A stretch of 38,615 nt of DNA from a virus, in the IMG/VR virus record IMGVR_UViG_3300046092_000152, positions 1 to 38,615 of that record; one strand, 5' to 3'. Within the stretch, counting starts at the first letter, position 1. The number at the start of each line of letters is the position of its first letter. Below the pieces are notes generated by a model. The model saw only the letters and a list, made by a program, of their open reading frames with translations. It was not told the origin of the DNA and ran no database searches. The position numbers were made by a program, and so were the translations under genes. Shown one piece after another: positions 17,510-23,200 of this stretch.

Positions 17510-17655
17510 TGGCTCCCAGCGCAGGACTCGAACCTGCAACCACCTGATTAATCTCGGACCTATCCGTATTGCACGGCAATGCCGGGTATATTCTACCCAA
17601 CTGCATTCTACGCTTGGTCCTACAGTCAAGTGCTCTACCATTGAGCTAGCTGGGA
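17510..17655 (-). tRNA. tRNA-Asn (GTT) interrupted in the anticodon loop
   Basis: Removing 71 nt gives a perfect 75-nt tRNA. The acceptor is TCCCAGC/GCTGGGA with discriminator G and encoded CCA. The D arm is GCTC-AATGGTA-GAGC. The anticodon arm is CTTGA-CTGTTAA-TCAGG with anticodon GTT. The T arm is GCAGG-TTCGAGT-CCTGC. Everything outside the anticodon loop is canonical, so a random relic is unlikely. The interruption lies after CTGT, leaving TAATCAGG as the 3' half. It must be removed, or the tRNA is non-functional. Confidence 0.85.
17551..17621 (-). other. 71-nt structured insertion in tRNA-Asn anticodon
   Basis: The insertion folds on paper as a small four-way junction. The closing stem is GGACC (17616-17620) with GGTCC (17556-17560). 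Inside are GCG-TAGAA-TGC (17603-17613), GGGTA-GAATA-TACCC (17584-17598) and CCGT-GCAAT-ACGG (17564-17576). It has no open reading frame and is far below the size of any group I or II intron I know. The junction could be shifted by one T. Confidence 0.75.
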
Positions 17656-17698: not shown

Positions 17699-17786
17699 TG
17701 GTGGGATGTCAAGGTAACGCTCCTTATCAGTTCAATCGAACACTGGATTTACAGTCCAGGCCACGTCTTTAGTGGTATACCATCCC
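17699..17786 (-). tRNA. tRNA-Tyr (anticodon GTA), unusual T loop
   Basis: 88 nt including encoded ACCA. The acceptor is GGGATG/CATCCC with a G-A mismatch at the seventh pair. The anticodon arm is CTGGA-CTGTAAA-TCCAG. The class II variable arm GTTC-GATT-GAAC is as expected for bacterial Tyr. The T stem AAGG/CCTT closes a loop AGCGTTA that lacks the usual TTC, so the tRNA may be degenerating or specialised. Confidence 0.85.
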
Positions 17787-17989: not shown

Positions 17990-18195
17990 CCTATATTGTC
18001 TTAAATTTATCCCATCTATAGCTTGGCCGGTGAGGTATCCGATTATTACACGTGCAATCTGCCCATTCTCCGTTTAGGTGCTGATCAGGCACCCATTATA
18101 TAAAAGTAAATTACTCTTTTATATAATCTTTCCTTACCTTCTATAAATGGAATAAATCTAAGATATTTACTGCACAGTAAATATAGATAGAAAAT
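17990..18195 (-). other. Gene-free, structured interval (possible ncRNA or leader)
   Basis: No convincing gene is seen. It is locally GC-richer than its surroundings at 18020-18094. Three stem-loops stand out: GGTGC-CTGATCA-GCACC (minus strand, about 18077-18093), ATTATATAAAAG-9 nt-CTTTTATATAAT (18095-18127, perfect 12 bp), and ATATTTACTG-CA-CAGTAAATAT (18163-18184, perfect 10 bp). It lies between tRNA-Cys and the 62-aa gene. A tRNA fit failed because no T arm is present. Confidence 0.5.
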
Positions 18196-20225: not shown

Positions 20226-23200
20226 ATGGAAATTAAAATTACCCACGAAGAGCTACAAAAAAAGAAATTATTTCTTAGCACGCCAATGTATGGGGGCATG
20301 TGTGCTGGCATCTATAATAGGTCTATATCTGATCTAACAGCAGTTTGTATGAAATATGGAATAGAAATGAAATTCTACTCTTTATTCAACGAATCACTAA
20401 TCCCTCGTGCAAGAAATTATTGTGTAGATGAATTTCTACGTAGTGACTCAACACATTTTCTATTCGTTGACGCTGATATTGGTTTCAATGCTAATGATGT
20501 TATTGCTATGTTAGCGATGCAATCAGATGAATCACCATATGATGTCCTTGCAGGTCCGTATCCAAAAAAATCAATTCATAAAAATGCTAAAATTTTGACT
20601 GAGGATGGTTACAAGAAAATTAAATGGATTGTTGATAACAAATATAATGGAAAGGTATTAACCATTGATGATACTGGTAAGACATCATGGAATAATATTC
20701 TAGAACATCACTTAAATCCTAATAATAACAAATGGGTAGAAGTTAAATTATCAAAACACCCAACTAAAGCTAAAAAATTGATTATGACATATGATCATGA
20801 AATTTCTTATGTTGAAGATTTATTTAAGCCAACTATTCAATTTAAAAGAGTTGATGAAATGGTCGGAAAATACACTTCATTAAACCCGGAAAATGTAAGA
20901 TCACAGGCTTTATATAATACAGATGTTGTTTCTGCATTAATTGGGACATTGATGGGAGATAGTCATATATCTGGTAGATATAATAGATTATCATGTAGTC
21001 ATGGAGAAAAACAAAAAGAATATTTAGAATATAAACAAAATTTATTTGGTGGAACTATTAGAGAATATAAATCAGTTGGATATTCCACTTCACAAATTTT
21101 TCAACTTTCATCTATAGTTAATGGGCAAACAAAATATGCCAGAGAATTATTTTTTGAAAATAATGAAAAAACTGTTAAAAATATAATTCCATATATTAAC
21201 GATATTGCACTAGCATTTTGGTATATGGATGATGGTTGCCTAAAGAAGTCTGGCGATACTGCACATTATTGTGAATTAAATACTCAGGGATTTTCTGATG
21301 AGGATCAATTACTTCTTGTAGATTATTTTAAGAACACATATGGATTTAATGTTCGTATTGATGAAATGCAACCTACAGCCAATGATGTTACTAAAAGAAC
21401 ATATAAAAGATTAAGATTCGTTAATGGCGATGCTGATAAATTTTTTCAAATTATATCAAAACATATTCCAGAACATATGCAATATAAACTTCCAGAAAAA
21501 TATAGAAACAGTGAATTCGTTCCATTAAATAATGATAGATTAGAATTCGCAGCTACTAAAATTGAATCTGTAGAAAAAATTGATTATGATAGTGATCAAT
21601 ATGATATTGGAGTTGAAAATAATCATAATTTCCTATATAATACAGTTTTTATTCGCAATTGTATTAGCTGGGAAAAAATTAAAATGGCTGTAGATAAAGG
21701 ATTTGCTGATGATGATCCAGAAAATTTAAATAAGTATGTTGGAGATTATGTTTTTAATCCCGCTGGCAATACCACTCATATTCAAATTAATGAACCTGCC
21801 GAAGTTATGGAAACTGGAACTGGCTTTATGATGATTCGTCGTAAAACTTTTGATCTTTACAAAGAGGCATATCCACAGTATAGTTATAAGCCGGATCATG
21901 TTCGCACGGATGCATTCGATGGTAGCAGAGAAATTATTGCGTATTTTGATTGTATCATTGAACCAGAGACAAAAAGATATTTATCAGAAGATTATTTCTT
22001 TTGCATTCCAAGCTCATCACGTATAGAAACCCGTGACGATGGCGTATTAAGTATTAAGAAGATAGTTGATAGCAAATATAATGGATATGTAAAATCTATC
22101 AATGATAAGAATGAAGTAACTTGGAATAAAGTTGTTGGATGGTCTAATAAGAAAAATGATGGAAAAAAATGGGTTAAATTACTTTCAGATAGTGATAATA
22201 ATACTCGTTCTAAATTAACATCAACAGAAGACCATAGAGTAGCATATTTTAATGATGTGTTTAATCCCGTTATTGATTTCACCGAATCTAAAAATTTAAA
22301 GGGAAAATATATAGTAAGAAATATCGAAACTTCAAGAGAATATCATAAAGAAAATCCTTTATATAACAAAGATCAAATTAGTTATATGATAGGAACTCTA
22401 TTAGGAGATTCTACTATTTCCAAAGTTGGACAAGTTAGTATGATCCATAGTGATAAACAAATTGAATATATCACTGAAAAATCTAGAATTTTAAATGGTA
22501 AAATGCAATTTAGAAAAAATACTGGATTTGGTAAAAATCATAATTGTATTATTTCTCATTTTCCTGTTAATGTTCAGACAAAAAAATTAAGAGAGTTATT
22601 ATATGTTGATGGTAAGAAAACCATTAAAAATATAATTGATATGATTGATGAAAAAAGTATAGCTTTTTGGTATATGGATGATGGTTCATTACAATCAAAT
22701 TGTATGAGACTTCATACTAACGGATTTTCTAATGAAGATCAATTACTGTTAGTTAATATGTTTAAAGAAAAATATAATGTTGATGTGAATATTTCAGAAT
22801 CTTATGTAACATATAATAATGAAAAAAGAACATACAATTATCTTAGATTTAATGTTAATGAAACTAAAGTAATTATGGAAAAAATTGCACCTTACATTAT
22901 TAAATCAATGGAATATAAAATGCCAGAAATTTATCATGACGTGCCAAAAATTCCATATGATGGCAAATTTTATGAATTCTCTGCTTCATTAATTAGTGAG
23001 GTAAAATACCTCGACAACTTTCATAGTAGATTGTATGATATTGAAGTAGAAAATGATCACAATTTTATGGCTCAAAATACATTAATTCATAATTGTCAGA
23101 ATGTGAGAAAGATGGGTGGCAAGGTATGGTTATGTCCCTGGATTGCATTACAGCATGTGGGATCATACATATTTGGGGGAACTCTTGCAGACCTTGCACA

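Follow-up and report, generated by a model that had tools for sequence, protein, structure and literature searches.

The window analysed here is a viral record of 38.6 kb. Its DNA polymerase shares 47% identity with those of Synechococcus phages, and the window is accordingly interpreted as a T4-like phage fragment. On its minus strand is a tRNA-Asn gene with the anticodon loop interrupted by 71 nt (Table 1). The Rfam tRNA model (RF00005) aligns to positions 17655-17513 with 53.6 bits (cut-off 29) and places the insert within the anticodon loop. ARAGORN misses the gene when run without introns; with introns allowed it reports tRNA-Asn(gtt)i(35,71), both in the window and in the related contig L030. 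The original prediction is correct in the position of the gene (17510-17655), the length of the insert, the restored loop CTGTTAA and the GGACC/GGTCC closing helix. The arms and the CCA end were also said to be intact once the insert is removed, and all four stems of the restored tRNA are indeed fully paired. The restored tRNA has the Asn features U1-A72, G73 and GUU and forms a complete cloverleaf. As a query it matched 221 phage records, the best of which are annotated as uninterrupted tRNA-Asn.

Table 1. Parts of the interrupted tRNA-Asn gene and of its insert in the window
Feature	Coordinates	Strand	Description	Evidence
tRNA-Asn(GUU) 5′ exon	17622..17655	-	34 nt, tRNA nt 1-35; ends C32 U33 G34 U35	Rfam RF00005, ARAGORN, direct reading
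Insert, tRNA-like intron	17551..17621	-	71 nt between nt 35 and 36	Direct reading, Rfam, fold, relatives L030 and L057, model R1
tRNA-Asn 3′ exon	17510..17550	-	nt 36-76; starts U36 A37 A38, ends G73 CCA	Rfam, ARAGORN, direct reading
Insert acceptor stem, 5′ strand	17616..17620	-	GGACC; preceded by insert nt 1, A (G in L057)	Fold
D-arm-like hairpin	17603..17613	-	GCGUAGAAUGC	Fold, comparison with L030 and L057
Hairpin in place of anticodon arm	17581..17601	-	8 bp, pentaloop GAAUA	Fold, L030/L057 changes
T-arm equivalent	17562..17578	-	UGCCG-UGCAAUA-CGGAU	Loop ends 16 nt before the insert end, like 17 of 20 inserts
Insert acceptor stem, 3′ strand	17556..17560	-	GGUCC	Fold
Tail, equivalent of tRNA positions 72-76	17551..17555	-	5 nt, GAGAU	AAGAU in L057

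The window insert folds much better than shuffled sequences (z -4.2; 0 of 200 shuffles). Its position and closing acceptor helix assign it to the family of inserts at site 35/36 described below, and the loop TGCAATA fits the T[TG]CRA pattern of the family T-arm and lies 16 nt before the insert end, one of the two family distances (16 and 13 nt). The insert had been predicted to fold as a four-way junction; the closing helix of that fold is correct, and what was overlooked is that the fold mimics a tRNA and that the element is widespread. The insert is conserved, with compensatory changes, in the two related contigs L030 and L057. Nine differences are found among the three inserts, and nearly all either lie in loops and linkers or keep or improve pairing. 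Every L030 and L057 change within the 8-bp hairpin preserves its pairing. A change at nt 12 of L030 shortens the D-like stem by one pair, and between the window and L057 the bases at nt 1 and nt 67 are swapped, from A.G to G.A.

The T-arm stem of the window insert consists of 3 bp plus a G.A, compared with 4 bp in L057, and an alternative local hairpin, CCGUG-CAA-UACGG, is on its own 2.2 kcal/mol better than the T-arm. A covariance model built from other members of the family (R1), which also contains six and five exon bases, matches the window insert weakly (23.2 bits, E 0.06) and the L057 insert with 29.2 bits (E 0.004). Rfam searches with the window insert alone, and with the insert of contig L131 alone, gave nothing convincing. 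In view of its weak T-arm, the better local hairpin, the R1 score of about 23 bits and the lack of an Rfam match on its own, the window mimic ranks among the least tRNA-like of the inserts.

Several other elements of the window deserve mention. Its tRNA-Cys also has a TGC-type T-loop (TGCAAGT); a variant loop of this type is therefore normal for the window phage. A tRNA-Tyr(GTA) with a long variable arm and the non-standard T-loop AGCGTTA, overlooked by ARAGORN, is at 17699-17786 (minus strand) and is identical in L030 and L057. Adjoining the tRNA-Cys, at about 18000-18115 on the same strand, is a conserved structured stretch whose hairpin stems appear to vary in a compensating fashion among the window, L030 and L057; an Rfam search with this stretch gave no convincing match. 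Two intein-like insertions (20572-21668 and 22004-23080) lie within one open reading frame and are polymorphic in presence, as both are absent from L030 and only the second is absent from L057. The ribonucleotide reductase and RecA-like genes of the window look intein-bearing as well.

Pattern scans, BLAST and covariance-model searches revealed about 20 distinct inserts, 35-71 nt long and distributed over some 40 viral contigs or genomes. Every one is at nt 35/36, a site that is unambiguous in Sinorhizobium phage phiM12, and in all the exon junction is CUNU/UAA (the slash marking the junction). The interrupted tRNA is nearly always tRNA-Asn, with one tRNA-Lys(UUU) and one class II tRNA. Cases were kept after a filter for complete tRNA bodies, and these are separated by a clear gap from tandem and chance matches. 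A pattern of tRNA-Asn halves 50-80 nt apart recovered L030 and L057, with homologous 71-nt inserts, together with a group that has an unrelated 64-nt insert. A BLAST search with the window tRNA led to phiM12, whose tRNA-Asn has a 46-nt insert at the identical site. When the tRNAs of other members were used, the interrupted genes among the matches listed were confined to Sinorhizobium phages and the Agrobacterium jumbo phage Atu_ph07. Atu_ph07 was reported to have no tRNA-Asn (PMC6102473), and the interrupted gene that it carries (L127, L138) is its supposedly missing tRNA-Asn. Annotation pipelines thus miss interrupted tRNA genes of this kind.

The covariance model, run against 32 whole records, found such genes only, plus two surprises, the tRNA-Lys(UUU) of L131 and the class II tRNA of L088. 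A Lys-directed scan added one contig, L253, with the L131 Lys intron. Only Asn hosts came from a generic scan for other isoacceptors and from an intron-centred scan, and a scan for inserts of 70-100 nt returned the 71-nt contigs only, besides chance and tandem matches. Among 84,980 bacterial and archaeal species, a scan whose pattern demanded GG at the insert start gave tandem tRNAs and chance matches and zero interrupted tRNA-Asn genes. A covariance search for the insertion in other phages had been suggested at the outset, and family members are found in many phages. The possibility raised with it, that related phages would have an uninterrupted tRNA with random junk at this locus, is not borne out; homologous or analogous structured inserts are present at the identical site.

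Some individual loci display further properties. The tRNA-Lys(UUU) gene of L131 (3279-3405; also in L253) has a 49-nt intron with a TGCGAAT T-loop, and this intron differs from the Asn intron of the same phage. L088 has, at 1952-2090, a Ser-like class II tRNA with a 50-nt intron of the tRNA-like family; if spliced at 35/36, it would carry the anticodon GUU on a Ser-like body. The T-arm of this intron is almost the same as the one in the tRNA-Asn intron directly upstream, which suggests a recent copying of the intron within the phage. In phages phiM12, phiM7 and phiM19 (L080, H82, H83) the interrupted tRNA-Asn is annotated as tRNA-OTHER, tRNA-Thr or, in phiM12 records, pseudo, and an HNH endonuclease gene is found directly downstream in the opposite orientation.

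At the RNA secondary structure level, the inserts at nt 35/36 share one architecture. By sequence and predicted fold, each insert except one is a tRNA or mini-tRNA in which acceptor stem and T-arm stack and the anticodon arm is reduced or lost. The clearest case is the 64-nt insert of L052. Taken alone, it matches the Rfam tRNA model end to end, from first base to last, with 43.1 bits (cut-off 29), and a UUAA tetraloop replaces the anticodon loop. In compact inserts of 43-51 nt, a 4-6-bp acceptor stem stacks with a T-arm whose stem is mostly 4-5 bp long; the T-loops have the form TTCRAWT or TGCRAHN. The D and anticodon arms are replaced by a short linker, which is often UAAAGGUAAAU. The inserts of phiM12, Atu_ph07 and others consist of acceptor and T-arm only, with loops of the TTCRAWT form. 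Of 20 inserts, 17 have 16 nt between the T-loop and the insert end, two have 13 nt and one has 15 nt. Since 16 or 13 nt from the T-loop corresponds to tRNA positions 61-76 or 61-73, the inserts begin and end where a tRNA would; a T-arm at such a distance occurred in only 10 of 105,000 shuffles.

An alignment of ten families has 94.5% of the cells in insert helices paired, with changes on both sides in 10 of 11 pairs; slid-partner controls reduce pairing to 27-48%. This alignment was anchored on the exons, and MAFFT without exon anchors misaligned the 5′ strand of the acceptor stem. Most inserts end 4 nt beyond the acceptor stem, without CCA, and their tails are A-rich and conserved (AAAAG, AAGAU). 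Pairing of the tail with the invariant 5′ exon (C32-G76, U33-A75, U35-A73) was considered as a possible interaction. The shortest insert (35 nt; L086, 1228-1262) has a closing GAAC/GUUC helix and a 5-nt tail and no recognizable T-arm; it may be an exception or an extreme reduction of the family. On these comparisons, the existence of a family of tRNA-like inserts is considered close to certain.

The exons provide a separate line of evidence. Among 16 diverged exon pairs, from loci that were chosen partly by their tRNA bodies, the exon helices are 99.4% paired, and 16 of 21 pairs have changed on both sides. Identity bases are also retained, namely U1-A72, G73 and GUU in the Asn copies and A73 and UUU in the Lys copy. 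Paired, covarying exons would not be expected to persist in a gene that is never spliced, and the exons are read as being under selection. This bears on whether the interrupted tRNA might never be spliced and act instead as a decoy or regulatory RNA, or be a decaying pseudogene broken by tRNA debris. The phiM12 records, which give the gene as tRNA-OTHER or pseudo, agree with such a view, as opposed to the state of the exons, the single identical insert site in all lineages and the covarying insert helices; it is considered improbable. The original prediction had named three options, namely a minimal intron of a new kind, a substrate for processing and a decoy. The first two find joint support, as the insert is intron-like and has the anatomy of a tRNA-processing substrate, and the decoy is disfavoured by the many diverged copies with covarying cloverleafs and correct identity bases. 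The interrupted gene is probably a functional phage tRNA-Asn, an assessment made jointly with the splicing pathway outlined next.

It is proposed, as the probable reading, that this phage tRNA-Asn is split by a tRNA-mimic intron that would be released by RNase P and a cut at the tRNA 3′ end, with a phage Rnl1 ligase sealing the exons. In the precursor, the intron would fold between U35 and U36 as a tRNA or mini-tRNA with an acceptor stem on a T-arm and no working anticodon. Host RNase P would then cleave after U35, before nt 1 of the mimic, and leave a 3′-OH on the 5′ exon. In a second step, for which the enzyme is less certain, an RNase Z-type nuclease would cut after mimic position 76 (or 73) and leave a 5′-phosphate on the 3′ exon. 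The paired anticodon stem would keep the halves together, and a T4 Rnl1-type 5′-3′ ligase would join them, restoring CUGUUAA.

RNase P leaves a 3′-OH, and RNase Z-type enzymes leave a downstream 5′-phosphate. T4 Rnl1 joins such ends in anticodon loops (PMC3400036); the order of RNase P, 3′-end cut and Rnl1 is proposed because the expected ends are those that this ligase joins. RNase P accepts acceptor/T-arm hairpins and places its cut by a distance of 12 bp to the T-loop (PMC11143913). The corresponding spacing comprises 11 nt and, on the 3′ strand, the position opposite nt 1 in 17 of 20 inserts; in two it is 12. The inserts also have U at position -1 of the predicted RNase P cut. The 3′ cut is the weakest step of the model, given that in most inserts the acceptor stem is followed by four bases and no CCA, an end at which clean cutting by a known 3′ nuclease is not established.

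This boundary, with its conserved A-rich tail, is unlike an established 3′ tRNA cut and would fit genuine introns that are cut in another way, either by a dedicated phage endonuclease that reads the tRNA shape or by self-cleavage of the insert. The tRNA shape would then be a handle or the relic of a captured tRNA. Thg1-like proteins, which are 3′-5′ polymerases acting on tRNA, are found in 8 of 9 large intron phages, compared with 3 of 18 controls, and such phages thus carry further tRNA enzymes. Against this, no conserved catalytic core is present besides acceptor, T-arm and tail in inserts that go down to 43-47 nt, and a dedicated nuclease would not require insert ends that equal tRNA ends. 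Cutting by such other means is judged possible and rather unlikely.

The ligase of the RNase P/Rnl1 pathway has a counterpart in gene content. Eight of nine intron phages of at least 150 kb encode a T4 Rnl1-type RNA ligase (PF09511), compared with 4 of 18 large phages that lack the element (Fisher p 0.003). When only phages with a T4-type portal are compared, the association is weaker (7 of 8 versus 4 of 12, p 0.03), and it may reflect shared ancestry. That Thg1-like proteins associate as well likewise indicates that the enzyme association may in part be one of shared ancestry. In G011, one of the large intron phages, ligase domains of the PF09414 type are present and PF09511 gave no match. 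The T4 Rnl1-type ligase was not found in the window contig, which is a 38.6-kb fragment only.

Small introns in anticodon loops are typical of archaeal and eukaryal splicing, and a phage might have acquired a bulge-helix-bulge endonuclease. The archaeal tRNA endonuclease (PF01974) was found in none of 20 intron phages, with four archaeal controls positive, and RtcB in none of 26 records; the known hosts, Sinorhizobium and Agrobacterium, are bacterial. In addition, the inserts are at 35/36 and not at the canonical 37/38, one nucleotide 3′ to the anticodon (PMC4090602). Splicing of this type, which the original prediction did not expect in a bacterial host, is very unlikely.

Group I introns have a catalytic core and a size above roughly 190 nt. 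Bacterial tRNA anticodon loops do host them; moreover, the 5′ exon here has a terminal U, and G is the last base of several inserts. It is nevertheless scarcely credible that inserts of 35-71 nt with a tRNA-like fold are degenerate or minimal group I introns. As the original prediction had argued from size and ends, the window insert does not belong to this group, with its 71 nt, a terminal U in place of G, and an Rfam search of the window that gave no group I match. All phage introns known at the time of a 2014 review were in protein-coding genes (PMC3984707).

As the group I tests (size, ends, no Rfam match) and the archaeal-type tests (site, no endonuclease) both fail, the tRNA-like intron looks like a previously undescribed intron class. 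No description of tRNA-like introns was found in the open-access literature, which was the part searched. The fuller proposal, a new class of tRNA intron found so far in phages only, in which a tRNA within a tRNA borrows RNase P and 3′-end processing and relies on a phage ligase, is thought somewhat more probable than its negation. If true, the recurrence of a tRNA-like intron at a single fixed position across many phages would mean a new intron class, and a protein-dependent cut-and-ligate pathway of tRNA splicing would operate in bacteria. The widespread phage Rnl1 ligases would gain a role in maturation besides damage repair. Such a system would illustrate how borrowed house-keeping enzymes can remove an intron, and it would suggest one possible route to the origin of cut-and-ligate tRNA splicing. 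Two groups of isolated phages, Sinorhizobium phiM12, phiM7 and phiM19 and Agrobacterium Atu_ph07, make splicing directly testable.

The introns known in bacterial tRNA genes are self-splicing group I elements. Those of cyanobacterial tRNA-Leu and Azoarcus tRNA-Ile resemble the phage inserts in that they interrupt a bacterial-type anticodon loop after a 5′ exon ending in U. They differ in being ribozymes with a large core, whereas the phage inserts are tRNA-like, have no group I core and often have a last base other than G. Archaeal and eukaryal tRNA introns are likewise short, are in the anticodon loop and depend on protein cutting and ligation, as is proposed for the phages; they lie at 37/38 and are cut by an endonuclease, whereas the phage inserts are tRNA mimics at 35/36, in phages where neither that endonuclease nor RtcB was found. 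With RNase P minihelix substrates, and with other tRNA-like RNAs that tRNA enzymes process, the inserts share the acceptor and T-arm, a T-loop 12 bp from the 5′ cut and nt 1 at the expected cut. Unlike these substrates, the mimic is embedded in a second tRNA, and removing it would join the two flanking exons. The T4 tRNA repair system, in which Pnkp and Rnl1 act after PrrC, has in common with the phage model the type of ligase and its place in the anticodon loop. T4 repairs damaged host tRNA-Lys, whereas the break in the phage tRNA would be a programmed step in the maturation of the phage's own tRNA.
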